Source: Rhodospirillales bacterium
GTDB lineage: Bacteria > Pseudomonadota > Alphaproteobacteria > Reyranellales > Reyranellaceae
Assembly (NCBI GenBank): GCA_013205335.1
Contig: JABMNB010000397.1
Coordinates: 1 to 32,928 of the forward strand
Direction of reading: 5' to 3'
Length of the DNA: 32,928 nucleotides
Of the stretch, positions 13,778-23,996 are shown piece by piece; position 1 is the stretch's first letter; each line of letters opens with the position of its first letter. Made by a program: the position numbers and the translations under genes. The notes under the pieces were generated by a model. That model was given only the letters and a program-made list of their open reading frames with translations. It had not been told where the DNA came from and did not search any database.

Positions 13778-15853
13778 TCAGGCCGCCTGACGCCTCCTGG
13801 TCTCCTCGACGATTCGTTCGGCCGTCCGTCCGGCGAGTTCCTGCAAGTGGTCGAACTCGGTCCTGAAGCTGCCGATGCCTTGGGTGACTGACCGGATTTC
13901 CACGATCAGGTCGGCGATCTCAGCCTCCGGCATCAGGGCCGAGACCTCGTCCCATCCCGGCCAGTCCGGACGGGCATCGTAGCCAAGGAGCTGGCCGCGG
14001 CGGCCCGAGATCAGCCGCTGCAATCGCGGCGTCGACTCAGCTGGCCCGGCCACCGTCACTCTCAGGATGGGTTCCAGCAGCACCGGTTTGCACTTGGACA
14101 TGGCCTCGCTCATGGCGATGCGCGCGGCCATCTTGAACGACATCTCTGAACTGTCGACGGCATGGTACTGGCCGTCGAACAGGGTCACTTCGAGATCGAC
14201 GACGGGTTGGCCGAGCGGCCCTTCCTTCAGGTATTCGAACACACCTTCTTCCACGGCGGGAATGAAGTTGCGCGGTACGACCCCGCCCACGACCTTATCG
14301 ACGAACCGAAAGCCCGACCCGCGCGGCAATGGCTTGATCTCGATCTTGACGTCCGCGAACTGGCCGTGGCCGCCGGTCTGCCGCTTGTAGCGCGCATGCT
14401 GGTGTGTGCAGGCCTGGATTGTCTCGCGATAGGCGACGCGCGGTGTCGTCATGTCGACGGCGACGTTGTACCGGCCGGCCAGCTTGTCGACGGCGACCTT
14501 CAGGTGCATTTCGCCCTGGCCCTTGAGCAGCAGCTCGTGGGTCTCGCCGCGGGCCTCGAAGGAAAGCGAGGGATCCTCCTCGACGAGCTTGTGCAGGGCG
14601 CCGGAGAGTTTCACCTCGTCGTTCCTGTTGCGAGCCGACAGGGCCAGGCCGAACACGGGGGCATCGGCTGCCGGAAAATCGGCCGATGCGGCGATGCCGG
14701 AAGGGCTGAGCGTCTGTCCCGACGACAGCGCTTCGACCTTGGCCAGCGCCACGATCTCGCCGGCGCGCGCCTCCGCGATCTTGTCGAGCCTCTGCCCGAA
14801 GGGGCGCAGGATCGTGCCGACCCGGTGGCCGCCGACAGATTGGCCCTCGCCCAGCGCGCCGGACCAGATGCGGCAGATCGAGAGCTTGCCGGCATGGCTC
14901 TGATGCAGAACCTTGAAGCACTCGGCCATGGGCGCGCCGTTCGAGGCCAGGGCGCGGCGCTTCGCCGTCACCTCGACGAATGGCGTATCGTGACGCAGCG
15001 CCTTGAGGAGGCGTCGCACGCCGTTCTCGCGGTCACCGGCGCCCAGCAGGACCTGCGCGATCTGATCCGAACCGAACTCTTCGTGAAGGTCGCGATAGAT
15101 CAGCGATTTCTCCGGCGCGATATCCTCGACCAGCTGTTCGAGCAGCGTGTCGTCGAACTCCGAGAGCGTTTCCAGCATGTCGCGTCGTGCCTCGGCCTCG
15201 CGCGGCAGCACCTCCGCCGGCATCTCGATCAGGTCGGACGCGCCACTGTTCTTGTAGCGATAGGCGAGCTCGCTCACGAGATCGACATAGCCCACGGTCT
15301 CCTCTCTGCCGTCGGCCGCGGGTCGGCGGACCGGCACCTGTCGCAGCAGCAGCTTCCGCCGCGACACCGACTGCAGCGCCGACAGCATGTCGCGCACGCG
15401 GACCTCGGCGGAGTCGATCTTGTTGACGAAGATGATGTGCGGGATGTGCCGGTCCTCAATGTATTTGAGGAGCGGCGTCAGCGCCATCACGCGCTCTGTC
15501 GAGGGCTCGCAGACCAGGACCGCCGCGTCGCACACCGCGAGGGCGGCGAAGGCATCATGTTGGAATTCGATCGAACCCGGCGCGTCGAGAAAGGTCCACT
15601 GGTCGCCGAGATAGTCGGCCGAGGCCACGTTGATCTCGGTGCCCATGCTGCGCTTGCGCGACTCAGCGGCTCCATCGCCAATCGAGGTGCCCGCGCGAGT
15701 AGACCCGCGCCGGCCGATGGCTCCCGTGGCGTAGAGAATGCTCTCGAGCAGGCTGGTCTTGCCTGACAGATACGGTCCGCACAGCGCCACCACGCGATGC
15801 GCACCGCTGCCTGGTCTGCCGCCGGTGATCGTCTCCGTTTTGAATTCGGCCAT
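13778..15853 (-). CDS. Elongation factor G-like GTPase (FusA paralogue)
   Basis: A 691-residue translational GTPase with all EF-G domains. G motifs are GPYLSGKT (26-33), DAPG (90-93) and NKID (144-147). Domain IV has YHAVDSSEMSFKMAARIAMSEAM followed by LLEPILRVTV. It is not the housekeeping EF-G: the switch II motif reads DAPGSIEF, where canonical EF-G has DTPGHVDF, so the catalytic His is replaced by Ser, and switch I is diverged. Such paralogues occur widely in alphaproteobacteria and their role is unclear. An AAGGAGGAC lies nine bases before the ATG. The region upstream carries a LacI-type palindrome. Downstream, 98 bases away, is the putative selenoprotein gene. Confidence 0.9.
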   Translation of the reverse strand: MAEFKTETITGGRPGSGAHRVVALCGPYLSGKTSLLESILYATGAIGRRGSTRAGTSIGDGAAESRKRSMGTEINVASADYLGDQWTFLDAPGSIEFQHDAFAALAVCDAAVLVCEPSTERVMALTPLLKYIEDRHIPHIIFVNKIDSAEVRVRDMLSALQSVSRRKLLLRQVPVRRPAADGREETVGYVDLVSELAYRYKNSGASDLIEMPAEVLPREAEARRDMLETLSEFDDTLLEQLVEDIAPEKSLIYRDLHEEFGSDQIAQVLLGAGDRENGVRRLLKALRHDTPFVEVTAKRRALASNGAPMAECFKVLHQSHAGKLSICRIWSGALGEGQSVGGHRVGTILRPFGQRLDKIAEARAGEIVALAKVEALSSGQTLSPSGIAASADFPAADAPVFGLALSARNRNDEVKLSGALHKLVEEDPSLSFEARGETHELLLKGQGEMHLKVAVDKLAGRYNVAVDMTTPRVAYRETIQACTHQHARYKRQTGGHGQFADVKIEIKPLPRGSGFRFVDKVVGGVVPRNFIPAVEEGVFEYLKEGPLGQPVVDLEVTLFDGQYHAVDSSEMSFKMAARIAMSEAMSKCKPVLLEPILRVTVAGPAESTPRLQRLISGRRGQLLGYDARPDWPGWDEVSALMPEAEIADLIVEIRSVTQGIGSFRTEFDHLQELAGRTAERIVEETRRRQAA

Positions 15854-16024: not shown

Positions 16025-17269
<1,245 letters not shown>

Positions 17270-17356
17270 CTAGTCGCGACGCAGGCTTTCCGCAAGGCAA
17301 CGGCCTCCTATTTCTCGTCAGGCGAGCCGTAGCGCTGCTAAGGCTGAGCGGGCGGC

Positions 17357-17560
17357 ATGCCGTTTCCGCCGGTTCCCTTCCGGCAGCTGATCTCGCCGGC
17401 CTTCATTGCCCTGGTGAACGTGCTCATCCTCTTTCCGATGGTGCTGACGATCATCGACCTGGCCGGCAGCGTGAACCGGCATGTCTTCGTCCTGACCCCC
17501 ACGCCGGCGGCGCGAGAACTTCGAGGAAAAGGCGGTCGCTTGAGCGGGACGGCTCGCTAG
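17357..17560 (+). CDS. Possible small single-span membrane protein
   Basis: A 67-codon ORF in the 329-base gap between aspC and the transglutaminase-like gene. It starts with ATG and has one convincing hydrophobic segment (ISPAFIALVNVLILFPMVLTIIDLAG, residues about 12-37) followed by a basic tail. No strong ribosome binding site is seen, and its stop overlaps the stop of the convergent transglutaminase-like gene (CTAG). I do not recognise it. It could be a genuine small membrane protein, a remnant of a larger one, or chance. The rest of the gap shows nothing I can name. Confidence 0.35.
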   Translation: MPFPPVPFRQLISPAFIALVNVLILFPMVLTIIDLAGSVNRHVFVLTPTPAARELRGKGGRLSGTAR

Positions 17561-18375
17561 TCGACGAGGCGTACCGCCGCCTCGACAGTCATCTTTGCGT
17601 CGCCGAAGCCGACGCGGCGTCCGCTGACCGGAGCAGCATCGCGGTAGTCGAGGCCAACGGCGACGCGAAGACTGTCGCCGCGCGGGCTGATGCCGTTGGC
17701 GGGATCGAAGCCGACCCATTCGAGGCCCGGCACCCAGGCTTCCGCCCAGGAGTGGCTGGTCTGGCCCACATGCAGTTCCGGATCGTCGTTGCGCAGATAG
17801 CCGCTGACGTAGCGGGCCGGCACGCCGAGCCGGCGGCAGCAGGCAATGAAGATGTGGGCCTCGTCCTGGGCTACGCCGGCGCCGCGGGTCAGCGCCTCGG
17901 CCGCCGACGTGTCCACCGTAGAAGCGCCGGTCCTGTAGGCCACGCGATCCGAAATGCGCGCCATCAACTCGTGCAGGACGGCGACACGGCGTTCCGGATC
18001 TGCGGCGCGCTCGGCAAGACCCGCGATCAAGGTGTCGAAGCTCGCATCGTGCCGCGCCAGGCCCGTATTGCGCAGCCAGAACGGTGCCGGGAGCGTTGGT
18101 TGCTCGACATAGCGCAGCCATTGATCGGCGCCGCTGTATTCGTAGATGCCGTTCACCACGATCTCGACGCTGTCGTGCTGTTGGGCGACCGAGAAGGTCG
18201 TCACCTGGTTGCCATGACCGTCCGTCCATTCGGAACGTTTGCCGGGACCGTCGATCCGCCAGGACACCAGGCGCTGCGCTGCCGCGGGCTTGGGCGTGAG
18301 CCGGACGTCGTGGATCGAATGGCCGGAGGGCTGGTCGAACTGGAAGCGCGTGGCATGGTGGACGGAGAAGCGCAT
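17557..18375 (-). CDS. Transglutaminase-like family protein lacking the expected catalytic Cys
   Basis: A 272-residue protein with the N-terminal beta domain of bacterial transglutaminase-like proteins (MRFSVHHATRFQFDQPSGHSIHDVRLTP) and the papain-like core. The core normally reads GVCxDxAH, but here it is GAGVAQDEAHIFIACCRRLGVPARYVSGYL, with Ala169 at the Cys position. The His (TSHSWAEAW, His209) and Asp (VGFDPANG, Asp224) are kept. The codon is GCC, so this is not a one-letter reading error. It is the last gene of the ATP-grasp / alpha-E / transglutaminase operon, eight bases after alpha-E. Amidase-type activity is therefore doubtful unless the following CysCys takes over. The start at 18375 is preferred to a track start at an ATT. 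Confidence 0.85.
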   Translation of the reverse strand: MRFSVHHATRFQFDQPSGHSIHDVRLTPKPAAAQRLVSWRIDGPGKRSEWTDGHGNQVTTFSVAQQHDSVEIVVNGIYEYSGADQWLRYVEQPTLPAPFWLRNTGLARHDASFDTLIAGLAERAADPERRVAVLHELMARISDRVAYRTGASTVDTSAAEALTRGAGVAQDEAHIFIACCRRLGVPARYVSGYLRNDDPELHVGQTSHSWAEAWVPGLEWVGFDPANGISPRGDSLRVAVGLDYRDAAPVSGRRVGFGDAKMTVEAAVRLVD

Positions 18376-19324: not shown

Positions 19325-20761
19325 CTACCTGCCGTCCGCTTCGTCGGGGGCCAGTACCCAGGTGTCCTTGGTTCCGCCGCCCTGGCTCGAATTGACGACG
19401 AGAGACCCTTCCTTTAGGGCGACGCGGGTGAGGCCGCCCGGAACGATGGTGATCTTCTTGCCCGAGAGCACGAACGGGCGCAGATCGACATGCCGGGGCG
19501 CCACGCCCTGGTTCACGAAGGTCGGGCAGGTCGACAGGGCCAGCGTCGGCTGGGCGATATAGTTGTCCGGCCGCGCCTTCAGGAGCGCCGTGAATTCCTC
19601 GATCTCGGCCTTGCTCGAAGTCGGGCCGACCAGCATGCCCTTGCCACCCGATCCATGAATTTCCTTCACGACGATCTCGGACAGGTGTTCGAGCACGTAC
19701 TTGTAGTCGTCGGCCCGGTCGCATCGCCAGGTCGGCACGTTCTGCAGGATCGGCTCCTCGCCGAGATAGAAGCGGACCATCTCGGGGACATACGTATAAG
19801 TCGACTTGTCGTCGGCCACGCCGTTGCCCAGCGCATTCACGATGTTCACGCGGCCGGCGCGCAGCGCGCCCAGCAGGCCGGCGACGCCGAGGAACGAATC
19901 AGGTCGCATCGCCAGCGGATCGAGGAAGGCGTCGTCGACGCGACGGTAGATCACGTCGACGCGCTGGGGCCCGCGTGGCGTGCGCATGTAGACTCGGCTC
20001 TCGTCGACGAACAGGTCCGAGCCCTTCACCAGCTCGATGCCCATTTCATCGGCGAGGAAGGCATGCTCGAAATAGGCGCTGTTGTGATGGCCGGGCGTCA
20101 GCAGAACCACATTGGGTTCGTGGCCGTCGCTGAAGGACACCGACCTGAGCGTCGCCAGCAGTTCCTCGGAATAGTCGGCGACGGGCAGGACGCTCATCGC
20201 GGCGAAGAGCTCCGGCGCCAGCCGCATCATGACTTCGCGGTTTTCCAGGACGTAGGACACGCCGGACGGCGTGCGCACGTTGTCTTCGAGGACAAAGAAA
20301 TCCTTCTCGCCGACGCGGACGAGATCGATACCGGCGATATGCGCGTGCACGCCGCCCGGCAGTTGCAGGCCCTGCGCCATGGCGACGAACTCGCCATTCA
20401 TCAGGATTTGCTCTTCGGGGATCACGCCGGCGCGGCAGATATCGCGTTGGCCGTAGGCGTCGCTCAGGAAGGCGTTCAGGGCTCGGGCGCGCTGCGACAG
20501 GCCCTTGTGCAGGTACTGCCATTCGTCCCAGGCGATGACGCGCGGGATGATGTCGAAGGGGATCGTCGTTTCGGCACCCTCGGCCGCGCCGTAGGCACCG
20601 AAGGTGATGCCGTGCCGGCGGTAGAAGAGATCGACTTCGTTTCGCGTCGCCGCCACGCGTTCGGGCGAGGTGCGAGCCAGCCAGTCGGCGACACCGCGAT
20701 AGGGCTCTCGGATCGAACCGTCCGAGCCGGAATTCATCTCATCGAAGACCTTGGCTGCCAT
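19325..20761 (-). CDS. Circularly permuted type 2 ATP-grasp protein
   Basis: A 478-residue protein of the circularly permuted ATP-grasp family predicted to form amide bonds. Landmarks are FYRRHGITFGAYG, PFDIIPRVIAWDEW, FFVLEDNVRTPSGVSYVLENR, and the C-terminal VVKEIHGSGGKGMLVGP with HVDLRPFVL and VVNSSQGGGTKDTW. It is the first gene of a tight three-gene operon with alpha-E and a transglutaminase-like protein. The ATG at 20761 with GGGGG about 11 bases upstream is chosen; an in-frame ATG at 20788 is possible. Comparative work on amidoligases links this gene set to novel peptide synthesis or protein tagging, but no substrate is known. Confidence 0.92.
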   Translation of the reverse strand: MAAKVFDEMNSGSDGSIREPYRGVADWLARTSPERVAATRNEVDLFYRRHGITFGAYGAAEGAETTIPFDIIPRVIAWDEWQYLHKGLSQRARALNAFLSDAYGQRDICRAGVIPEEQILMNGEFVAMAQGLQLPGGVHAHIAGIDLVRVGEKDFFVLEDNVRTPSGVSYVLENREVMMRLAPELFAAMSVLPVADYSEELLATLRSVSFSDGHEPNVVLLTPGHHNSAYFEHAFLADEMGIELVKGSDLFVDESRVYMRTPRGPQRVDVIYRRVDDAFLDPLAMRPDSFLGVAGLLGALRAGRVNIVNALGNGVADDKSTYTYVPEMVRFYLGEEPILQNVPTWRCDRADDYKYVLEHLSEIVVKEIHGSGGKGMLVGPTSSKAEIEEFTALLKARPDNYIAQPTLALSTCPTFVNQGVAPRHVDLRPFVLSGKKITIVPGGLTRVALKEGSLVVNSSQGGGTKDTWVLAPDEADGR

Positions 20762-20859
20762 CCGGCATTTCACCCCCTGTCGAATCATCTTATAAGCAAT
20801 CGACGGGCCAACAAAGTGCCCTTGTGAACATCCCTTGAGACATCGGGCGGAGGTGCGGC

Positions 20860-23513: not shown

Positions 23514-23996
23514 TTGAACGACGTCAATCAGTTGCAGCACGCTTTGCAGGCCGCAGACTTGGCCATGAGGGCGGGTGAGCCGGCCAGCCTCGTGACGGCG
23601 GCTCTGCTGCATGACGTCGGTCATATGCTGCATGGCTTGGGTGAGAATCCGGCGGCAAACGGCATCGACGATCGTCACGAGGACGAGGGCGCGCGCTGGC
23701 TTGCGGAACGGTTCGGGCCCGAGGTCAGCGAACCGGTGCGCCTCCATGTGGCTGCCAAGCGCTACCTGGTGGCCACTGAACCCGGGTATGCCGGCCTGCT
23801 CTCCGAGGATTCCGTCCGTAGCCTCGCGCTGCAGGGTGGGCCGATGAGTGCAGAAGAAAGGGCAGCCTTCGAACGCGAGCCGTTCGCGGAAGCCGCCAGG
23901 AAGCTCCGTCGTTTCGACGAAGGAGCCAAGGATCCGCACGCGGTGGTACGGAGCTTCGAGCACTACCTGGAATACGCAGAGGCCTGCTGCCGCTAG
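23514..23996 (+). CDS. Phosphonate-degradation-associated HD-domain protein (PhnZ-like), 5' end unclear
   Basis: An HD-domain oxygenase-like protein of the group found with phosphonate catabolism. PhnZ cleaves 1-hydroxy-2-aminoethylphosphonate using a di-iron centre. It contains QLQHALQAADLAMRAG, LLHDVGHMLHG, HEDEGARWL and LHVAAKRYLVA. The track start is a TTG, but homologous sequence continues upstream in frame (ELLQIFEARATRRYG). That extension runs back to a TAG at 23466, seven codons after an ATG at 23445 (MTNSALR-stop-ELLQIF). Either an amber mutation has hit codon 8, or translation starts late or at a rare codon such as ATT 23481. The stop overlaps that of the convergent LysR gene. Confidence 0.7.
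   Translation: MNDVNQLQHALQAADLAMRAGEPASLVTAALLHDVGHMLHGLGENPAANGIDDRHEDEGARWLAERFGPEVSEPVRLHVAAKRYLVATEPGYAGLLSEDSVRSLALQGGPMSAEERAAFEREPFAEAARKLRRFDEGAKDPHAVVRSFEHYLEYAEACCR

Follow-up and report, generated by a model that had tools for sequence, protein, structure and literature searches.

A transglutaminase homologue with alanine in place of its catalytic cysteine throughout Reyranella, encoded in an Anbu-type operon without Anbu

The window, a 32,928-nucleotide stretch of a Reyranella genome, encodes a transglutaminase homologue that carries Ala169 where the family has its catalytic Cys. The substitution is common to the genus, and the protein is well supported by sequence data as a genus-fixed pseudoenzyme. 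It probably binds or presents a substrate for the intact ATP-grasp/Alpha-E amidoligase encoded by the same operon, which appears to be without hydrolases of its own. The relevant features are the following.

17557..18375, minus strand: pseudo-transglutaminase of 272 amino acids, Bact_transglu_N plus Transglut_core (translation and Pfam profiles)
17869..17871, minus strand: Ala169 codon, at the catalytic Cys position in the motif GVAQDEAH (translation and alignment)
17752..17754, minus strand: His208 codon, triad His kept (His in 280/280 homologues)
17704..17706, minus strand: Asp224 codon, triad Asp kept (Asp in 280/280 homologues)
17836..17841, minus strand: Cys179-Cys180 codons, encoding the only two cysteines present, where the helix starting at Ala169 reaches its C-terminal end (conservation counts and AlphaFold)
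17836-17838, minus strand: Cys180 codon
18384..19316, minus strand: Alpha-E protein (PF04168), its stop 8 nt before the transglutaminase ATG (Pfam)
19325..20788, minus strand: circularly permuted ATP-grasp ligase (PF14403/PF04174; Pfam and conserved columns)
17252..17556, minus strand: intergenic stretch where close relatives carry the Anbu gene, with no Anbu here (profiles and neighbourhood comparison)
16025-17251: aminotransferase, the next gene after the intergenic stretch

The transglutaminase gene runs on the minus strand from an ATG at 18375 to a stop at 17557-17559; the initial annotation had placed it correctly while stating no strand. Both domains score well above the curated Pfam cut-offs (Transglut_core, PF01841, 74 bits against 23; Bact_transglu_N, PF08379, 62 bits against 27). 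The annotation had also read an Ala in place of the catalytic Cys with His and Asp retained, which is borne out by translation and a gap-free alignment, the window protein having GVAQDEAH vs GVCQDxAH in the family. Of the catalytic residues of an active transglutaminase or cysteine protease, His208 and Asp224 are in place, and the Cys is replaced by Ala169. The AlphaFold model (mean pLDDT 95.5, pTM 0.93) has a papain-like transglutaminase fold. A fold search returned 3isr as the best solved match (TM 0.71-0.74), with band 4.2 and Rad4 also matched.

To place the substitution, orthologues were collected from >50 genomes of the genus Reyranella, which here includes R. aquatilis and Enhydrobacter aerosaccus. 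All 54 distinct orthologues (79-100% identity) have Ala169, and the Ala clade has a support of 100 on the tree, with sister rows that carry Cys. The closest relatives outside the genus (G338, G251 and G280; 52-54% identity) likewise have a GVCQD motif with Cys. Ala at this position is therefore a clade trait among orthologues of the same operon type, which is what the initial annotation had proposed to check. The Ala is encoded by GCG at 35, GCC at 21 and GCA at 2 of 58 loci. Given 54 distinct sequences, varied Ala codons and Cys in 217/280 relatives, Ala169 goes far beyond chance or sequencing error. Median dN/dS within the genus is 0.176 for the transglutaminase, close to the values for Alpha-E (0.156) and the ATP-grasp protein (0.126), and 47% of transglutaminase sites are invariant; the gene is under purifying selection. 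A sequencing error or pseudogene was rejected as the source of Ala169 on the basis of the 54 distinct sequences and dN/dS. Three genomes placed in the genus stand apart from the Ala-type set: in G002, G003 and G009 (loci L041, L042 and L043), a different, Cys-bearing operon, ~40% identical, is found instead of the Ala type. Anbu was confirmed in at least G002 and G009. Either the operon has been replaced in these genomes, or they are wrongly placed in the genus.

Loss of the nucleophile has recurred outside Reyranella. Among 280 distinct homologues the catalytic position is occupied by Cys in 217, Ala in 54, Pro in 3, and Tyr, Gly and Ser in 2 each, with both His and Asp kept in 280/280. A tree of 125 rows, built with the Cys column masked, places 7 losses on its best topology, and at least 6 are forced by well-supported branches. 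A second genus-wide loss is seen in genus g14 (L311-L340), with Pro, Ser or Ala in 30/30 loci read and His and Asp kept in all 30. This genus is probably Sphingomonas, judging by its position on the tree beside Sphingomonadaceae/Sphingomonadales rows. Its motif is x-[PSA]-R-D, and the Arg and Asp do not vary in any of the 30 loci, a pattern that resembles a pocket put to a new use more than drift. Further losses, each represented by single assemblies, are to Tyr (G100 and G352), Pro (G150), Ser (G105) and Gly (G581). The nucleophile loop is altered in most losses outside Reyranella, and the ATP-grasp and Alpha-E genes adjoin the transglutaminase gene in every Cys-less lineage. Retention of His and Asp is only suggestive of function. 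It was rejected as proof, as several other conserved sites are equally kept; the two residues could serve structure, given that several further positions with high conservation among the Cys-bearing relatives have been retained too.

The window operon is tight, with ATP-grasp, Alpha-E and transglutaminase genes in that order and consecutive genes separated by 8 nt from stop to start. The ATP-grasp protein is intact: of 121 columns that are at least 98.5% conserved among proteins of Cys-bearing operons, only 2 are changed genus-wide in Reyranella (Met to Val and Phe to Met). Most Cys-bearing relatives have a gene for the proteasome-like protease Anbu directly after the transglutaminase, which identifies the operon as the published Anbu operon (PMC6376114, PMC5666114). 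Anbu lies immediately downstream in G338, G251 and G280. No Anbu gene follows the transglutaminase in the window, none was found beside it at any of the 46 Reyranella loci with enough sequence, and none was detected in the whole Ala-bearing Reyranella genomes G000, G015, G043, G059 and G022, the window's own among them. Both the recurrence of Cys loss and the Anbu-type operon minus Anbu had escaped the initial annotation. The double loss of Cys and Anbu is also seen in G105 and in genus g14, where no Anbu was found in four whole genomes or in the flanks of 30 loci. There is no tight link between the two losses: G100, G352, G150 and G581 have lost the Cys and kept an Anbu with Thr1, Asp17 and Lys intact, and 11 Cys-bearing tree rows have no Anbu nearby. 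A general rule connecting the two losses was rejected: independent losses are few, and a test of independent pairs drawn from the tree gave no significance (median p 1).

Several other genes in the window and its genome were observed. Just past the aminotransferase, positions 13778-15853 (minus strand) encode an EF-G-like protein of 691 amino acids that looks like a divergent EF-G paralogue, and a small protein at 23514-23996 (plus strand) resembles an HD-domain (PhnZ-like) protein by eye. An Rfam scan of the window gave no matches. Elsewhere in the genome, a second Alpha-E operon (L309, contig C88, 5656-12553) encodes a 1146-aa multidomain transglutaminase with GSCRD, a fused ATP-grasp/Alpha-E protein of 832 aa and a transglutaminase with an intact GVCQDFAH. 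A tandem transglutaminase pair with GSCRD and GVCRD is present on contig C17 (L004/L005). Reyranella genomes contain 2-12 Transglut_core genes each, and the Cys-bearing transglutaminases of the host, including that of the second Alpha-E operon, could provide activity in trans, a point against the reading of the window protein as a substrate-binding subunit.

Transglutaminases and papain-like enzymes require the thiol for their chemistry, and the usual catalysis is therefore excluded to a good degree. The Ala169 protein retains the transglutaminase fold, the His208-Asp224 pair and the surrounding pocket, and would form no thioester, hence support neither transamidation nor amide hydrolysis, because Ala occupies the nucleophile position. 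The data show that the Cys is absent, that this state is fixed and conserved, that the fold is predicted with confidence, that the partners are intact and that Anbu is missing; we infer from this that the protein does not catalyse and that it binds either the ligase or the ligase's substrate, and we likewise infer the direction of the operon's chemistry. In the proposed model the protein acts as a substrate-binding or presenting subunit of the ATP-grasp/Alpha-E amidoligase encoded just upstream; conservation of both pocket and partners makes this the most likely function. The Reyranella operon would then make amide bonds while encoding neither of the usual amide-cleaving activities, Anbu also being gone. 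With nucleophile and Anbu both lost, the system appears left with the bond-making half only. The initial annotation had suggested that a dead hydrolase might serve as a binder or scaffold; clade-wide Ala, purifying selection, the intact fold, the kept His/Asp and partners, and the recurrent loss favour this as far as sequence can. A bolder version is possible and is put forward tentatively: a hydrolase-free Anbu system may have arisen in Reyranella and independently in g14, the cleaving parts lost and the ligase kept, with the dead transglutaminase as a dedicated substrate-recognition subunit using the pocket of the active forms.

The annotation had alternatively proposed that the nucleophile moved to the nearby CysCys, and had named realignment of a neighbouring Cys to the catalytic position as the result that would overturn its reading. 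Misalignment of this kind was ruled out: the alignment has no gaps around the motif, the CysCys column (179,180) corresponds to ordinary helix positions in Cys-bearing relatives, and the helix register agrees. Ala169 is at the start of a predicted helix (169-182) and both Cys at its opposite end, 10-11 residues and about 15-17 Å away as estimated from helix geometry alone. Cys179 is conserved in 41/52 genus members, with Ala or Ser in the other 11/52. In favour of Cys180 as a relocated thiol is its presence in 52/52 Reyranella sequences vs 17/91 relatives that keep the catalytic Cys. It nevertheless lies eleven residues down the helix, about 16 Å from the active-site position, and is missing from most other Cys-less lineages. 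The variability of Cys179, the occurrence of Cys180 beside a true catalytic Cys and the helix distance make relocation very unlikely, with Cys180 as the working thiol highly improbable.

Activity might instead reside in a partner, the Cys-less protein forming heteromers with, or regulating, another transglutaminase in the cell that has its Cys, and lending it allosteric support in a prozyme-like manner. The number of Transglut_core genes per genome and the second Alpha-E operon with its GVCQDFAH protein would permit this, but nothing indicates that the gene is encoded together with a copy that has the Cys, and we consider such pairing fairly unlikely. That His and Asp are never lost in the Cys-less sequences read could also point to catalysis lacking a covalent intermediate, His208-Asp224 acting as a general base, for example on water or on an amine that attacks the acyl phosphate produced by the ATP-grasp protein. 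Structural reasons might equally hold the two residues, however, the nucleophile loop is altered in most non-Reyranella losses, and we know of no chemistry for a lone His-Asp pair in a transglutaminase fold; this explanation is unlikely. Finally, the gene could be losing its function slowly after the loss of Anbu, which has already taken place, and be retained through operon polarity only. Such decay is doubtful and is disfavoured by the selection data, as the gene is full-length in >50 species with a dN/dS of 0.18, nearly half of its sites are invariant, and the Ala is retained despite codon drift.

Lineages that have lost nucleophile and protease and kept the ligase suggest that the ligase half is of use by itself, and also that the transglutaminase has a non-catalytic function. 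In a Reyranella-type strain the amide product should not be removed by the operon's own enzymes, making this a place to seek that product. Inactive transglutaminases beside ATP-grasp enzymes are already known, as is the Anbu operon itself. In the literature searched, with the founding paper (Iyer 2009) outside its scope, we found no description of Cys-less Anbu-operon transglutaminases, of how they arose repeatedly or of their occurrence together with a loss of Anbu, and no paper naming Alpha-E, transglutaminase and ATP-grasp together.

The window operon shares with the Anbu operon (PMC6376114, PMC5666114) the order and families of its first three genes, and its close relatives have Anbu directly downstream; it differs in the Cys-less transglutaminase and in the absence of Anbu from the genomes searched. 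For the Yersinia operon, pull-downs with Anbu as bait gave no stable complex (PMC6376114), which counts against the proposed binding role; published hypotheses on the Anbu operon are described as not experimentally confirmed (PMC6376114). The Cytophaga hutchinsonii putative cysteine protease 3isr has the two-domain architecture in common with the window protein, but retains its catalytic Cys (GVCRDFAH). Erythrocyte band 4.2 (EPB42) and XPC/Rad4 are transglutaminase folds that have lost catalysis and now serve as scaffolds (PMC10318531), although both are eukaryotic, have other partners and share 12-15% identity in the aligned parts. RloB is an inactive transglutaminase that shares a genetic pathway with the ATP-grasp protein RloC, and its mutation, like that of RloC, rescues the loss of the cognate proteases (PMC12239564). 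It differs in being fused to seven transmembrane helices and encoded in another operon with a retropepsin-like protease (PMC12239564); the window protein is not of this type, its two soluble domains covering the 272 residues with no room for seven helices. As an inactive transglutaminase encoded with an ATP-grasp protein, the two acting together genetically (PMC12239564), RloB offers a close precedent for how the Reyranella protein would work, in the manner of these pseudo-transglutaminases.
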